From Mesodorylaimus sp. YZB2_4 (Eukaryota; Nematoda; Enoplea; Dorylaimida; Dorylaimidae), in the NCBI GenBank assembly GCA_030248295.1, contig JASANH010000446.1:1-64000 (forward strand): a DNA stretch of 64,000 bases. Direction: 5' to 3'. Every line of letters begins with the position of its first letter. The first letter of the stretch is position 1. The notes beneath the pieces are model-generated. The model was not told the origin of the DNA. It did no database searches and saw only the letters and a list, made by a program, of their open reading frames with translations. This document shows positions 46,254-59,739 of this stretch, piece by piece. The position numbers and the translations under genes were made by a program.

Positions 46254-49200
46254 ATGGATCTTCAACTGATTGCCATTGCTGTTGCGGTGATCGTGGTGGT
46301 ACTTATTCTATTGGCCTGCTTCGTGCTGGGTACACGCGAACGAACGTTCGAAGATGAGTTGGCCGAAAAGAAGGGACTGGGTATTTTGTTGTCTTCTGGT
46401 CAACACGGGAAATCGGCCGACAAACACAAGGACAAGCATAAGACGCATCACGATACGGGTGGTGGTACCAAAAAGAAGTCTCAGCAGCAGAAGTCGAACG
46501 AAGGCGTGGTTGCATTAGCCACGACTCAGCCGAGACATCCGAAGAAGGAAAAGGAAGAGAAAGAGGTAGGTCTATATGCTAGATATGTTTTGATGCGGCC
46601 ACTTGAACACCCGTTTATTCTTTAGAAACTTCAGCGACAGCGTTCAACTGGTTCTGCATCTGCCGAAGAAAAAGAGGTAGGTCGTATGGCGGTTTTTACG
46701 CAACGAGTTCTTTTATTATCGCCCATTTTAGGCGAAGCATCCGTCGAAGGAGACGACTCCAGCGTATCTCGGCGGCTCTGAATCTTCTCGTAGCCGTCAC
46801 TCCTCATCCGGCGAAGCTATCGCGAATACGGAAACGGCTGAAACGCATGGAAAGAAACAGAAGCGGCAGCAACAGTCGTCGAAGACAGTCGAAGAAACTC
46901 GCGATGAAAGCGATGAAAAAGCATCGGAACAAAAAGCGAGCAAGAAGTCTGGAAAGAAGAAACGCCGCGCCGATACGGATGACGCGGATGCTGGCGCCAC
47001 CTTACGCAGATCGTTTCACGAAGACCAAGATCAGGCTAATGCAAATGAACAGAATGGCCATTTGGACCACAAGAAACAAGACTCGTCGATCGCCAGCAAT
47101 ACTGATGACAAAGGGGATACATCGGTTTCGGAATCAGCCGCGGACCAACCTTCGAAGAAGGCTCAGAAGAAGAAGCAGAAGGCGGGTGGAAAACAACAGG
47201 AAGACGAACATCAGAATCAAGAAAACAAGGAAAATGTCATGGAAGAGCGTTATGAAAAGGTCAATGCGTCGGCGACCGCAGCGGCTCCACAGGCTAAACA
47301 GAAGGCCGCGAAGGGCACGGCGGCCAAGGCATCCCTTCATGATGGTAAGAGACCTCTTCAGGCAGGGATATCGGCTTTTACATTGAGGAGTTTGGGGGTT
47401 GGCAGGATTACGTCTTAATAGGGGGCATCCAGGCTGATTGTGAGAGTTCTCCGGTCCCGAGGTTTTTAGTTGATGAATGCGAAGTATTGGCAGACATGGT
47501 TGGAATGGTGCGTGTTTGCGAAACGTTTCTTTCTCTGCACCTATGGTGCTGCGCTGTACGTCTGCGTGTATATACGACGGATCTTTTCAAGGGCGTTTCG
47601 TCTAAAAGCACGGCTTGATGTAACTGCGTGGGTTGCCCCCGTACGCTGCTGATGCGCGGCCTAGTTTAGTTTGTTCAGGTGCATTGGTCGAAATCATGTT
47701 TTCCACCCGCTTTGTAGTAAATTTGTGCGCTTATCCTTGCGTTCTGTCGAATCGCGAGGGGATACTCATTCTCGCCGCTGCATTTTGCTTTTTCTTTGAT
47801 GCGCAAAGGCGTGACCCGAAAGTGAGAACGACTTCTGGGAGAGCGAGGTGGGGTGGATGGATTGACGTGCCCCCAGTGCAGTCCTTGAGAGTGACAAATG
47901 AATCTAAATGTCGCGCCCCCGATGCCTCTTACTCCTTATCTCAAAGTCTAATACGAGTCGTTTTTGCATTTTAGACAACAACTTAGACGTTATTATCGAG
48001 CAGTTAAAAACATCATCGTTGAACCATGCGCAGCTGGAATTCGTACTGAACGCGATCTTGAATAAACAAGAACAAGGAAGCCAGGTACGGCTAGCTTCGA
48101 TACGAACATTTATAAAGTCCTAATACTTGTCTTTTTCAGGGTGGACAAAAAAGCGATCATTTGTCAACCTTGAAAAGTCAGCTGGAGGAAAAAGAAAAAG
48201 CTCTGGCCCAAGAAACACAATTGGCCGCTAGTGTCAATCAGAAATTGAAGGAACTTCGGTGTGTGGTTTTTTAATCTTCTTATATGAGATGCATCGTGAT
48301 TGTCGATGTTCCTGCGTTTTAGCCAGCAACTGGATGTGGAAAAGAATCGTTATGCCACGTCTGAGCGAGCCTACCAAGAGCAGCTGGGCGTGAAACAACG
48401 TGATTTACAAGCGGCTCAACACAAAGTACAAGAACTGCAGGCCCAATGCGGCCAGTTGTCGGTTCAGAGTCGTCAAGCTCAAGATCAATTGTTGACATAT
48501 CGCAAAGCTCTCGAGCAAGCGCCGAATCCGAACCAATTGCAACAATTGCGCGAGGAAAGTCAGCGTCTGAAAGAACATCTGACTAGGAATGAGTAAGTCA
48601 AACGTGTTACATTTTGACTCATTTGCTTACGCAGTTCGGCCATTATTTACAGCCAAGAAGCGCACGCTCGCTCGGCGGAGGTGCAACGGTTGCGTCAAGA
48701 TATAGCGCAACGCGAAAGTCAATTGCATCAGGCGGAACAAAGATTCGTTCATCTTCAACAAAACTTGTCGATGCAAGAAAGCACTCAAAATCAGCAATTG
48801 ACCGAATATCAACAGAAATTGGCGGCTAAAGAACATGCGTACGCTCAAATGGAACAAGAATTGGCGACTGTTAAGCGGGAATGGAGCTTGTTGGAGACAT
48901 CTGTGCGTGAATTACGTCAACAGGCAAACATTGCTTCTCAGTTGCCGGCAGTAGAACGAAACGTGCGCTTGCAGAATGCTCAGGCAGTTGAAGGAAGCGA
49001 GGTAATTTACTAGTGTCGAAGATGTGAGCCTGAAATCTGGTATGTTGTTTTGTTTCAGGAAAAATTAAAGATAGAAATCAACGAACTGAAAACCTCGAAT
49101 GATCATTTGAGCCGCGATTTGCAAGCATCGAAAACGACATTGACCGATTTGGAGAAACGAGTCAAAGAATTGGAAAAGGAGTTAAAAGAAGCGCATGCCT

Positions 49201-52200
49201 CGTCGAAACGTCAAACTGAAACGTCTCAAAAGGAAGTGCACCAGTTGCGGGACCGTTTGGAAAAGGCGGAGCGTGAACGAGCTGATCTATTATCGGAAAA
49301 GGCTCGTGTAAGCGGTTCGTCGAACATCAACTCGGAAAAGTAAAATTTGTCTGAGAAGGGCGGTTTCTTAGTTTGTAAAGACGAATTGTTGTTTTAGAAT
49401 CGAAAAGTTAGAAAAAGCCCAAAACGAATTGCGTAATCAACTAGAAAATGAAAAGAAAGCACGTACGTCGGCGGAATCAGAAATTAATAAATTGAAAAGC
49501 GAACGCGATTCGGCTCTAAAGGCAGCGGAAGAATATAAAAAGGCGAGCAGGTGAGTAAATTTTGGTCAATGTTTAACGAGTAGCCTGTTTTTGTGGTGTC
49601 TGCAGTCCGTGTCTGATAAATCCTGGCTGAATGAATTTGCTCGTAATGTCCCATAATCGCACGATTTTGCATTGGTTAGAGCTGGGTATTTTCGAAATAC
49701 GATCGGTGTATGATCTCTAGCTATCGGGTTTGCATTGTCCCCCTCTTGTTTGCCGTTTTACGGGGTGATTTGATACATTTAGACAAGTAGAGCTTTTGGA
49801 CTTGCCCATGAGTGTCCTGAGTTTACCAAGTTAACTAATGCCTCTCGGTGATGCTTGCTTGTGCGTAAATGTTTGTCGGTTGTTGTTCGTCTGCTGGCGG
49901 TTGGTCGCGATTGAGTCGTTTTAGATTTTGGAATAAGGGTGACGATTCCCTCGATAGACGGGAGGTGATTTTGATTGGCTTGCTGTTGTTGGCTGCTGTT
50001 TAATTAACGCAATGGTTCGATCAGCTTGCACTGGACTACGGATAATAACTTGTCCTTGCATGTTGATCCGTCGCTAAATAAGGAGGCGTCGATTGTGGAA
50101 TGGTGATTGGACGGAAGTGCATTTTCGATTTTAGGTCTGTGTCCTCATCTGGAAGTACAGTAGCACAAAGGTCAAATTTGAAGCATGTAATATTGGAATG
50201 GGTAGCCGAACGCGATGATCCTGAATGGGATGGCAAAACACCCGAAAGCGTGAAACTGACTGGCACTTTTTGGGGCTGGGGCGAGCCAAAACCAATGAAA
50301 CAGATCAAAGAGCAAAACGGAAGCATAGATGGCGAGATGGGCCTTGCTAAGAGCCGTTACGTGGCTGCTCTTGATTTGCCTCCGGGTCGGCATGAATTCA
50401 AATTTGTGGTTGAACAGAAACACGGTGGCGCTCGTTGGCTGTGCAGTCGTCATTATGCGATGTGCGGGGATTCGTCGGGTGTTGAAAATAACTACATTGA
50501 CGTTGAGTAATGAAATTTGCGCGTTTTTCTGTCGTTAGATTGGGAGGCAATGTTTGGGCCGACTTGTTGACGATGATGGCGGCTATTCGCTTTTTTGATT
50601 GGTGCTCAAAATGGGTATAGTTAATTAACTCAGTGGGGTCAATGTGCTATGATTACTACGATATTGGATAGAAGTTGGGCATTCTGAGTTAGAATAAATG
50701 TGCAATGGTGACATAGATAAGTGGGTGTGTGGTTAGAAATAGGCTTAGGGCGAAACGTAGAGGATGCTACTAACTGTTTGAGAAATCGGCAGCCTCACAC
50801 GAGTAGCTACTAGTTAGGAGATAATGGCAGTTAGCGTGTCACGATGGTCATCGACTGATGGCCTGGTGTTTTTTCAGGGATTCGAAAAGCACTGTGGAAG
50901 AGACGATCACCCTTAAGCAGCCAGTTCAGCATCTGCAATCATCGGCCGGCAATAAAGACAAGAATGCGGAGGAATGGCGACGCCGGGCGACAGAGTTCGA
51001 AACCAAAACCAAAACATTAGAAGCTGACATGGAGAAGTTGAAGGAAGATCGTCGTAGTCTTGAACAGAAAGTTCAGGTGAGACGATATACTCTGTATGGT
51101 GCTATTTAAATGCAGAGTTTGAAGTTTTTAGAGCTTACAACAAGAAAATATCAAATTGTCCGAACAAGCAGCCTTAGCCTCGCATAATGGACATCACTCC
51201 GAGGTAAGCGATAAAATGGCTAGACACTTTTTCATTTACCCAAGGCCCTGTTTGACCACTCTGTGACGGGTCAAAGCGAATAAAAGTCCGCCGAGGTGGT
51301 CTCTAATGGGTTTGTGTAGCTTTGGGGCTATTAGGTTGACAACGGGGTGGGGATTTTAATTCACGCATGCTGTGTAGCTCAGCATTGGAGTTATTTGTCT
51401 GCTTGTTTGGCTGTTTAGGGAGCATCAGCGGACGCTCTGAAGATTCAAGAATTGAGCCTGACGCATTTGAATAAGCAGTTGATCAGCAAGGATGGTGAAA
51501 TAGCGTATTTGAAACAACAGCTGGATCAGCAGCGTCAAAAGAATGTGGTATGTTAATTGGCGTATTCTTCTTTGGTTGATCGCAGTACCGCGGTATATGA
51601 TTTTGTTGACAGGAATTGCGCGAACGCAATCAAAAAGTGGTGGAGGCCATGAACCAGTTGGAGGTAACTAGTAAGGATATGACGCAGAGGGCGGAGAAGA
51701 AATATCAAAAGCAGTTGGATGACCAAGAAAAGCAAACGAAGCAAATGTTGGCAAAACTCATTCCAGACGCAAAAATTCCAGAAAAAGAAGTCAGTTCGTT
51801 TCGAATTGGTTTTTTCGAATTTCTAAGCTTATGCTTATTTAGACATTCTTCGAATGGATCAAGGAAGTTCAACATATCGTTACGGAAAAGTCCAAGACGT
51901 TATATGTTGAAAAGAACATTCGAACTTCGGATTTGGTAAGATATTTTACGGCCTTGGTGGCCCGAGGAAACATTTCGTTTGATTGGTTTAGGAAATGCAT
52001 GGACAATCGAAACAAGTGAATACGTTGAGTCGTGAAAATGCGGACCTCCGTGCTAAACTCGATCGATTCCAGCACGCGTTTCATCAAGCTGTGAGTCTGG
52101 TTGTAGTTCGTATTTGAGAACGAGACTGCATGAAATGCTGTGCTTGTAGGAGGCGGAATTCAAAGTAATCGAAGGACATGCTGCCAAGCAAGAGACGGTA

Positions 52201-53596
52201 TGGCGTGAACGTGTAGCAACTCTTGAAAAGGAATTGGCGAAGGTATGAACTGGGGTGTGTATTATGCGGACGGAAATGAAGGAGCCCTTTTTGGAGCCAG
52301 TGCTAGCGAAGGGGTGGGAACTTTAGGCTTCCTGCTTAAATTAAATCAAGTGTGTGCTTGGGCAAAGCTTGGACACTGAGGGGTGATTTAAAGTACTGTA
52401 AATTTCGAAATCTAACTTGCAGAGTTGTATGCCTCGCTACTTTTTATGCTGAAATCTGCAGCTGTTAGCGATAATCTTTGGATCTATCCTCGTAGGGATA
52501 GGGCTGAAACATGCTTGGCTATCAGACCCCAGCGTGTAGGGGCTCACACATGCGCAAGGGACTCCCATGTTCGGAATTCTGAGTGTTAGCTGGAAGGAAT
52601 TGAGTCGAGGATCAGCTGATCCTTGACAATTTTTTCGTCGTGGGGACCGTATGTCCGCACGTGGGCTTATCATATACGGTTTTCTTTTTAAGGCGAATAG
52701 TGGCCACAATGTTGATCTGACTGCTTCGTCAGCAAAGGATACTAAAGAAATAGAAGTGAAACTGGTCACTTTGCATTCCTCGCTCGATAAATTAGAACAG
52801 GAAAAGACTGTGTTCAGAACGGTAAGAAGGGTTTTGAAAGAGGTTCCTGGTGGTCGTGTTTTATCAGTCATGCGGGAGCCTACTATTTCGGTTTCCCTTT
52901 TCAGGAATTGGAACGGTTGCGCGCTGACCTGGAGCACGAGCGTGTGGGCGCTCGCGATTTATCATCGCAAGTGGTGAAATTACGGGGCATGTTGAAAACG
53001 GGCCAAGACGCGTTGAAGCAAGAACAGGATACAGTGGCCCAGTTACAAAAGCAACTAAAAGCTTTTCAGGTGAGACGAATCAGCTTATGACTTATTGTGG
53101 AGTACGGCGGTATTTCTAAACGAGCTTTGCTTGAATCTTCTAGGCCAACGCTTCGGCTTCGTCTAATGACGCCAAGGTTACTATTTCCCTTGCTTTATAT
53201 CTGTTGGTGTTGTGTAAGGGGTGGATTGCATTCAGATAAAAGGGGTAGTCTATCGTAGCAGTATTGTTTGCACTGCGATTCGTGAAGCACTTATTTGTGT
53301 GTTGCCTGCACTTTGTTTTTATGTTCTCACTGGCTTTGTATAATCGTGGTTTCCGTTTTAGGAAGGTAAAGGCGAGAAACAGTTGCATGACGAATTGGAA
53401 GAAGTAAGCGGTTTTTTGTTGAGTGATCAGTGAGTCGCAAGCCTGGATTGATTTTCAGATACGAACGAAATTAGTGCAACGGGAGCAACAACTGGAGCGA
53501 GAAATGATGATCAACAAGCAGTTGAATAACAAGTTGGCGGCATTGGGTGTGGCGTCGCCCCCGGCCAGCGTGGGCAGCAGTAACGGCTCATTATGA
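46254..53596 (+). CDS. RRBP1: Ribosome-binding protein 1 (p180)/kinectin-like ER protein, full isoform
   Basis: Twenty-one exons: 46254-46565, 46626-46676, 46732-47344, 47975-48084, 48140-48258, 48323-48592, 48653-49001, 49059-49339, 49398-49550, 50878-51076, 51132-51203, 51419-51547, 51613-51789, 51843-51935, 51992-52090, 52150-52242, 52693-52821, 52905-53069, 53144-53176, 53362-53403, 53459-53596; 1208 residues, phases consistent. An N-terminal anchor (residues ~5-26, IAIAVAVIVVVLILLACFVL), then the family motif RTFEDELAEKKG, a Lys/Glu-rich linker (~40-310) without the decapeptide repeats of mammals, then LKSQLEEKEKALAQE and a coiled coil to the end (EMHGQSKQVNTLSRENADLR, GMLKTGQDALKQEQDTVAQL). 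p180 anchors ribosomes and microtubules at the rough ER. Start is the first Met before the anchor. An alternative terminal exon is described separately. Confidence 0.88.
50135..50510 (+). CDS. Alternative terminal exon of RRBP1-like gene encoding an AMPK-beta/CBM48 glycogen-binding domain
   Basis: Lies in the 1327-bp intron after exon 9. Acceptor CGATTTTAG/G; incoming phase 2, the same as exon 10, so exon 9 (AG/) can join either. The exon encodes RSVSSSGSTVAQRSNLKHVI, then a glycogen-binding domain: VKLTGTFWGWGEPKPM, YVAALDLPPGRHEFKFVVEQ, ARWLCSRHYAMC, VENNYIDVE, stop at 50508-50510. Residues matching the sugar-binding face of AMPK-beta are present: Trp in FWGW, Lys in FKFVVE, Trp in ARW and Asn near the end. 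The isoform would be 877 residues: ER anchor, linker, half the coiled coil, glycogen-binding module. A separate nested gene from the Met at 50100 is possible but would put its start in the intron just before the acceptor. Confidence 0.75.
50693..50698 (+). terminator. Intronic poly(A) signal AATAAA
   Basis: AATAAA 183 bp after the stop of the glycogen-binding exon and 180 bp before exon 10. It would allow a transcript ending inside the intron. Confidence 0.6.
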
Positions 53597-54709
53597 AATA
53601 GGAAGTATTGGGGTTGTATGGGCAGGCGAGAAATGTGATATGTTTGTGTTCGGAGTTACGGTACTCTTGTTTTCCTTTTTGATAGGACTTGCGGGCCTCA
53701 GACGAATTGTAGGGTCGTGGGAGCATGGATTAACAAAGGGTTATACTGGTTATTGAGAAACGTATCGCGTAATTCGCTGCCAAATTTCATATGCTTGGTC
53801 TGTGCGTGGGAATTATATTAGGAATAATGTTTATTTAGGATTACAGCACGAGTTATGAGTGAGCATTTGCATTGTCGGGTTTATGGTATTTAGATAATGT
53901 TATGTTTGGTGTTGTGTTTGTGCTGCATCTGCTCTGAGCATATAGGGAGCGTCGGAGGCGCCTAATGATTCGGTGTTGGCTATATTTCTGGTTGCCAGTT
54001 GAATGCGCCCATAACGAAGTACGTATGAGGAGTGTTGTTGGTGCGACTAGGTGGTGTCGTACGGGGACAAGAGGGCAACCACACATATTGATCGTCCCAA
54101 ACTAGAGTGCCATGTGCAAGCTGCAGTGACCCATCGAGACTCGTGCATTGATATGGGGTCGATGAGCAATTAGGCGTGGCGGTAAATGACTGCCGCTATG
54201 CCGTACTGCGAAACTCAGAGAGCGGAGGAGTAAGTGCAAGATGTTAGGACGAAGACCAAGCGGCCACGAAAAGGAGCCTGCGATGGTGAAGCGAAGCGAT
54301 ACGAGCTGGCCACGATAGTCCTGAATATGGTAGAGTAATGCCCACAGGCTTAAAAAAAATGCGTGGCTGGTGAGAGCTTTGTGGTTTTGTGGGGGTTTGA
54401 GTGACATCCTTTGCAACTTCAGAATCACTGCTTGCAAGTCTGAACTACCGCGACAAGGTGAGGGTGGGAGCCAGACAATGGCAGGGCGTTTTGTCGGTTG
54501 CTATGCCGTGAGACCACGTCTCTGCCGCCTCCGCCTGCCCCGACTGCGATTCAGCTGTGACGTGCCGCCCAGCTGGCGTTGATGAATGACACAACACACC
54601 AAGACTTTGCCAGCGAACTGTTTCAAGTCTGCGAAGCGTGGACGTATCAGGCACGGTTCATACGCATGCATACGGCGCAAATCATCTGAGAGGACATGGC
54701 AGTCACCGA
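53597..54709. other. Intergenic between convergent RRBP1 and TTBK genes
   Basis: 3' UTRs of both genes are expected here. No coding exon is supported; ORFs on both strands are short and featureless. Confidence 0.5.
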
Positions 54710-55916
<1,207 letters not shown>

Positions 55917-56606
55917 CGCCCACACGACACGACCGCACGCGCACAGTCCCGCTGATCGAATGACTCGCATCGACTGGGTTCCAGTGTGATGACCTCATGT
56001 TGTAAAGTCATGTGCAATACTGTAGGTACTGAGGAGATGGGAAGAGGAAGAAGGCACCAAAGAAGGCCAGCCAACCGAGGCTTCCGACCTGCGGTGTTGC
56101 AGACATATCATCCCTCGGAGTCTCCTATCTGGCGGCTCTGTGCAGAGGATCGATTGCCGCCCGAGCGAGGACAATCAAATAACAGTAACAAACAAATAGG
56201 TACCGCAAAGATGCCACGAGTGGAGAGACGGAAGTCAAACAAGGGGATAAACCCAGCTATCCAACACCGACAGAGTGCACAGCCCAGCCGCCATCGTCCG
56301 AGGAAGTCGGTGTCCAGTCCAGGATGACCTCACTTTGAGGTGCTCCTAAAGACGCTGCCGCTGCCGCCCTTGACATGCTAGCTTGCACAGCCATGCTTGA
56401 CTGCCCACTGGCTATAGGCACTTCCGCTCATAGGGACTGCCTATAGCCAGAATAATTTTTAATGATCTGGAAGGCAGGTTTGATCTCTATAATAAACATG
56501 ACCGTTGTTGAGTTTACTGCGGCTGCTATGTCTGTGTATGTGAAAGCTACTTCCCCAACTGACTAGAGTCGAACCGCCCAAAAAAATATTTTCAATGTAA
56601 CTCTCC
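55917..56606. other. Divergent intergenic region with a repeat fragment
   Basis: Between the TTBK kinase and orphan copy B. At 56288-56347 is CCATCGTCCGAGGAAGTCGG and GAGGTGCTCCTAA, and at ~56403 GGCTATAGGCA; all recur near 59510-59655. Probably a piece of an unclassified dispersed repeat. Confidence 0.5.
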
Positions 56607-59164: not shown

Positions 59165-59235
59165 ATAGGCGATGCCATAGTCAGGGCAGGTGATGCAGGC
59201 AGGCATGTGTCGGGTGGCCGCAGTGGGTCAGTGGT
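59165..59235. repeat. 3'-flank repeat, copy 2
   Basis: Second copy of the repeat at 58525-58590. The surrounding 58591-59700 holds no supported gene; 59500-59655 repeats part of 56288-56420. Confidence 0.6.
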
Positions 59236-59739
59236 CGATGATAGCACGCTGATAGAGGTCGATCGCTATGAGAGTAAAATTCATCAGGAATGCTTTGAGC
59301 TTGTTCATTTGGTGGAGAAAGATGACAGAGGTGTTCCGCGGGTACAAAATGCGGCACATGTCGGATTTTCATATTATTCCTGCGTGTATTTTCTGTCAGC
59401 TGGCCTTCTGTAATATGCAGGCTATCTGTATCTTTAGGCTCTGATATAATTAATCCGAATTCCCCGAATGTTGAAAACACAAACACCGACTTCTTCGGAC
59501 GATGGCGGGCCCATCGTCCGAAGAAGTCGGTGTCCTGTCCAGGATGCTCTTGCGTGGAGGTGCTCCTAGTGGAGACACGCAGAGGGACAGGGCTGTGGGA
59601 CCGGTCCCCGAACAGCCCTGCTTATAAGGTTTGACTGCTGACCGGCTATAGGCAAAAGTAGAACGTGTTTATTCGCAGAGGTAATTCGTGTCACTAGTGT
59701 CCCGGATCGAGGCCTGGTGTTAGCTGCTAAATTTGGAGC

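Follow-up and report, generated by a model that had tools for sequence, protein, structure and literature searches.

A candidate alternative last exon that may place a CBM48 glycogen-binding domain on an anchored coil-like protein of a dorylaimid nematode

To our knowledge, most work on how glycogen is held at the endoplasmic reticulum (ER) has concerned Stbd1. STBD1 (genethonin-1) is a vertebrate ER-linked glycogen-binding protein that combines an N-terminal membrane anchor with a C-terminal glycogen-binding domain. In mice under ER stress, ER structures that contain glycogen are reported to depend on Stbd1 (PMC7648618). The DNA analysed here, a window of 64,000 nucleotides that forms the start of contig C139 of Mesodorylaimus sp. 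YZB2_4, raises the question of whether one gene may encode both an anchored coil-like protein and, through an exon lying in its ninth intron, a shorter form ending in a glycogen-binding domain, as a preliminary description of the window proposed. If true, alternative splicing would have produced an ER-anchored CBM48 protein as a distinct solution to the ER-glycogen problem, and the ER-glycogen link would become testable in worms. All genome searches reported below cover the 145-Mb assembly of 1067 contigs. The cuticle collagen N-terminal family PF01484, a marker of nematodes, matches this assembly at 133 places and has no match in any of 14 control genomes, as befits a nematode. A search with Chitin_bind_4 gave no match here or in any control and carries no weight.

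The splice sites of the host gene were picked by eye with the reading frame as guide. The features of the locus to which we refer throughout are the following.

46254-53597, plus strand: host gene, 21 exons encoding 1208 amino acids, with a frame open through all 20 junctions
46254..49550, plus strand: host exons 1-9, 2258 coding nucleotides ending in phase 2; junctions read open
49398..49550, plus strand: exon 9, common to both forms, with donor AG/GTGAGT and a phase 2 end
49551..50134, plus strand: upstream part of intron 9, whose sole genome match is its own copy
50135..50510, plus strand: coding part of the proposed alternative last exon, comprising a codon split with exon 9, a short linker, AMPK1_CBM (CBM48) and a TAA stop
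50511..50710, plus strand: proposed 3' UTR with AATAAA at 50693, and a GT-rich stretch at about 50720-50735
50878..53597, plus strand: exons 10-21 of the full-length form, open frame

Exons 1-9 encode an N-terminal hydrophobic anchor, a Lys/Glu-rich linker and the first part of a coil-like region. The hydrophobic start is confined to the very N-terminus: the KD-19 maximum is 3.53 at residue 6, and windows of at least 1.6 begin only at residues 1-14. Arg residues, followed by the Lys/Glu-rich linker, come directly after the anchor. Under the positive-inside rule, basic residues flanking an anchor mark its cytosolic side, so the long part of the protein should face the cytosol, where glycogen is. 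When the protein is divided into 17 stretches of 70 residues each, six of them surpass shuffled sequences in heptad periodicity (p < 0.05), most strongly at 701-840, and a Pfam scan of the host protein returned Filament below its cut-off plus weaker matches, and nothing else.

The short N-terminus, apparent single N-terminal anchor, Lys-rich linker and putative long coil recall the layout of p180/RRBP1 and kinectin. As to the p180/kinectin-like character that had been attributed to the host protein, the layout is suggestive of it, and the protein has no p180 match in Pfam: Rib_recp_KP_reg (PF05104) is absent from the matches of its two pieces up to E 10. A search of the genome with that family likewise gave no match, with the controls equally silent. 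The resemblance is thus one of layout, and 'anchored coil-like protein, p180-like by layout' seems the apt label. We know of no CBM in p180 or kinectin, and none is described for a p180-like protein in the open literature that we searched. According to PMC9804665, both proteins occur in some metazoa only, with origins placed before D. melanogaster for p180 and before D. rerio for kinectin; on that placement, kinectin would not be favoured for a nematode gene. In studies of glycogen itself, RRBP1 and kinectin are not named in the main text of an adipocyte glycogen proteome (PMC3622581), and RRBP1 is reported as raised in polyglucosan body disease samples in one of the papers PMC10683643 and PMC11087507, from which we draw no conclusion.

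The domain in intron 9 had been assigned to the AMPK-beta/CBM48 family, and the profile check recovers just that: the 50135-50510 open reading frame matches Pfam AMPK1_CBM (PF16561) with 45 bits against a gathering cut-off of 26.8 (E 1.2e-11), and its predicted fold is nearest to the AMPK beta CBM. The sugar contacts of AMPK beta1 include two Trp, a Lys, a Leu and an Asn, among others. In aligned exon numbering, Trp48, Lys89, Trp101 and Asn118 line up with the AMPK-beta-like gene on contig C428, and Ser stands in the exon at the place of the sugar-contact Leu of AMPK beta, which we count against the proposal. Unlike AMPK beta, the exon carries extra insertions and lacks the AMPK-beta C-terminal part. 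It shows no CBM20: up to E 1, Pfam returns AMPK1_CBM and Androglobin_II and nothing more. The codons of the exon look like those of a coding sequence. Scored with the table of the host gene, their synonymous choice gives 0.026 per codon, a value that only 1 of 2000 random back-translations reaches (mean -0.175, sd 0.067); the host gene, itself the training set, scores 0.163.

Searching the genome with the PF16561 profile identified seven places, namely the exon in the window and the following.

C28 and C428: two AMPK-beta-like genes that, by reading, possess the C-terminal AMPK part
C19, about 183671-184915 (L002:403-1647): RING protein with a C-terminal CBM
C70, about 245161-250979 (L015:3662-9480): TDP-43 N-terminal domain, then coil-like exons leading into CBM48
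C29 (L013 about 1890-2430), minus strand: two neighbouring stretches, probably one gene

The C70 locus bears most directly on the window. Its splice sites were again picked by eye; on that model, the frame stays open across six consecutive exons and their five junctions, leading from a coil-like stretch to the CBM, and the CBM exon is entered in phase 2, as is the exon in the window, so that this genome likely offers a precedent for a coil followed by a CBM. The two genes differ in that the CBM exon of C70 appears as an ordinary last exon. At C19 and C70, two scaffold-like proteins of this genome have a CBM48 at the C-terminal end.

Several other features of these loci were observed in passing. 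Upstream of the coil-like exons of C70 lies a TDP-43 N-terminal domain (PF18694, E 1.9e-21), an adjacency only, and just past the CBM stop (L015:9481-9694) another frame encodes, by eye, a hydrophobic stretch and then basic residues, a possible tail-anchor-like alternative end of the gene. The C19 open frame has zf-RING_UBOX and zf-C3HC4 over cut-off and AMPK1_CBM at E 2e-18, together with an extra Cys/His-rich stretch that has no B-box match in Pfam; the protein is possibly a glycogen-directed E3 ubiquitin ligase, on a theme like that of malin/laforin. The C29 stretches adjoin Cys-rich open reading frames.

How the exon in the window might be reached is indicated by its splice signals. Exon 9 ends in phase 2 at AG/GTGAGT, and both frame and donor agree with this earlier description, as they do with the further claim that two acceptors, at 50135 and 50878, are in phase with it: when exons 1-9 are joined to 50135-50510, the frame runs without interruption to a stop after 877 amino acids, and exon 9 joined to 50878 continues to 1208 amino acids. 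None of the other 19 introns of the gene is as long as intron 9, which measures 1327 nucleotides. With a matrix built from the gene's own 20 acceptors, the acceptor at 50135 (attttcgattttag/G) scores 10.2, the highest of the 66 AGs in intron 9 (runner-up 7.1), and lies inside the leave-one-out range of the true acceptors (-2.0 to 14.2); among the 3695 AGs of the window's reverse strand, 15 score as high. The exon 9 donor, itself among the training sites, ranks first of 109 GTs scored. Since 4 of the 20 introns of the host gene are in phase 2, the match in phase would arise by accident with a probability of about 0.2 to 0.33 and is by itself modest.

The signals of an alternative last exon are thus present in the DNA, with an in-frame acceptor after a common donor and a stop inside the intron. 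As regards the 3' end, AATAAA does occur at 50693, as had been described, 183 nucleotides beyond the CBM stop; given that 9.7% of shuffles of the 367-nucleotide stretch contain this hexamer, the poly(A) part of the proposal is only suggestive. In the other introns of the gene, AATAAA occurs once in 2389 nucleotides. Downstream of the full-length stop, AATAAT at 53823 is the sole match to any of 11 hexamers within 500 nucleotides, and AATAAA and ATTAAA are absent from the 1 kb that follows the stop.

A search of 5.8 billion proteins gave 38 candidates, three of which are relatives at E <= 1. These three, P0002, P0003 and P0004, all come from a source marked lgn, where each is a single sequence whose contig is 1519-1718 bases long, and all score above the AMPK1_CBM cut-off. 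P0002 has 57% identity over 98% of the query, P0003 58% over 88%, and P0004 67% over 72%; P0004 begins inside the domain and is hence mute on the acceptor place. Many residues of the CBM domain are invariant among the relatives. At the acceptor place, both relatives that extend upstream (2/2) have Phe-Arg, which, with codons deduced from the protein, would read TTY-AG/G, an acceptor of the same phase.

This conservation of the domain makes two explanations less likely. One is a dosage switch, in which splicing in of the exon, with its stop and early 3' end, serves mainly to reduce full-length protein, and the domain is carried along as a passenger. As a matter of general knowledge, a stop-bearing terminal exon within an intron can set dosage in this way, but a passenger would not need a domain conserved at 57-67% with many invariant residues, and we regard this explanation as improbable. 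Even less credence can be given to a decayed or freshly inserted, unused copy of a CBM exon. The DNA flanking the exon in intron 9 matches only itself in the genome, with no other copy, which would suit such an origin, and a repeat search in the intron found only a single 16-nucleotide pair, taken as chance; against it stand the intact open reading frame, the coding-like codons and the conserved relatives.

The strongest rival to an alternative last exon is an independent small gene on the same strand, nested in intron 9 and encoding a soluble CBM48 protein, either unspliced or with a first exon of its own. The unspliced version would begin as follows.

50100..50134, plus strand: start of the rival unspliced nested open reading frame, with an in-frame ATG, 10 more codons and 2 nucleotides before the acceptor

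The ATG at 50100 has G at -3 and +4, a fair context, and would open a frame of 136 amino acids. For the spliced version, the intron contains 21 first exons, each an ATG plus a donor, that are able to join 50135 in frame; as the donors at 49899 (score 5.4) and 49674 (3.5) fall within the range of true donors (-0.1 to 9.1), donor strength is no bar to a nested gene. The length of intron 9, the greatest in the gene, also suits such a gene, as does the best alignment of P0002: in BLASTP it extends 14 residues beyond the acceptor place on the upstream side, which speaks against a clean boundary there; the alignment of P0003 begins exactly at Phe-Arg. Yet likeness upstream of the acceptor place is no better than in shuffled sequences by local alignment (p 0.14 for window-P0002, 0.68 for window-P0003 and 0.55 for P0002-P0003), and the possible start codons differ among the window, P0002 and P0003. 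In the unspliced version, moreover, the strongest acceptor of the intron would sit unused within the open reading frame, and if a leader were trans-spliced directly onto 50135, the domain would have no in-frame ATG ahead of it. A search for SL1 RNA gave no match in this genome or in any control and is therefore uninformative on trans-splicing. The evidence weakens the nested gene, which we consider unlikely while still giving it real weight.

Two further searches addressed the exon in its host context. Among fusion-length proteins sought with the CBM region, 0 of 250 candidates reached E <= 1, and a search for the host gene in relatives with a peptide spanning exons 9-10 gave 0 of 18 candidates at E <= 10, so that no relative with the CBM exon inside the host gene was found. 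Scans of genome contigs and viral contigs returned 53 and 55 pattern matches, respectively, 0 of them confirmed.

On balance, we consider it reasonably probable that the host coil gene uses the CBM48 exon as an alternative last exon. This part of the earlier proposal is favoured by the strong in-frame acceptor, the Phe-Arg in two relatives and the layout of C70, and is qualified by the weight left to a nested gene. The main reading draws on evidence of sequence, namely the gene model, the domain, the frame, the strength of the acceptor, the conservation of the domain and the residues of the two relatives at the acceptor place. We infer that exon 9 would be spliced to 50135 through a junction 49550-50135 and that the transcript would end after about 50700 at the putative poly(A) site. 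The resulting short form of 877 amino acids would begin with a very short tail and a single membrane anchor, continue through a basic linker into part of the coil-like region, and end in an AMPK-beta-type CBM in place of the remaining coil. Of the common part it would retain 752 residues along with the anchor, and the 1208-amino-acid form would lack the glycogen-binding domain.

One gene may in this way yield a plain coil form and a shorter glycogen-binding form. If the short form is oriented towards the cytosol, resides in the ER and binds glycogen, each of which we take as a presumption, it would link glycogen to the surface of the ER, in a manner similar to that of vertebrate Stbd1; the placement in the ER rather than in another membrane is an analogy drawn from the likeness to p180. 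The role of ER-glycogen tether as a whole is accordingly put forward tentatively, as somewhat short of an even prospect. More tentative still is the wider proposal that, in nematodes of this group, a choice of alternative 3' ends has given rise, independently of Stbd1, to an Stbd1-like ER-glycogen tether built on CBM48, with a switch in splicing and polyadenylation that sets the amount of ER-held glycogen.

The comparison with STBD1 is one of a shared plan, an N-terminal membrane anchor with a C-terminal glycogen-binding domain, reached with different parts: STBD1 has a CBM20, no long coil and a gene of its own, whereas the short form would have a CBM48 encoded by an alternative last exon. Laforin is another CBM20 glycogen protein. 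It is listed as absent from C. elegans in PMC2714694.

Elsewhere in the window, adjoining the host gene at 54997-55994 on the minus strand, open reading frames resemble, by eye, a casein-kinase-type protein kinase. Further on, at 56108-56329 and 59181-59634, open reading frames on both strands contain, again by eye, a repeated stretch such as DTDFFGRWR, which is perhaps part of an inverted-repeat mobile element.
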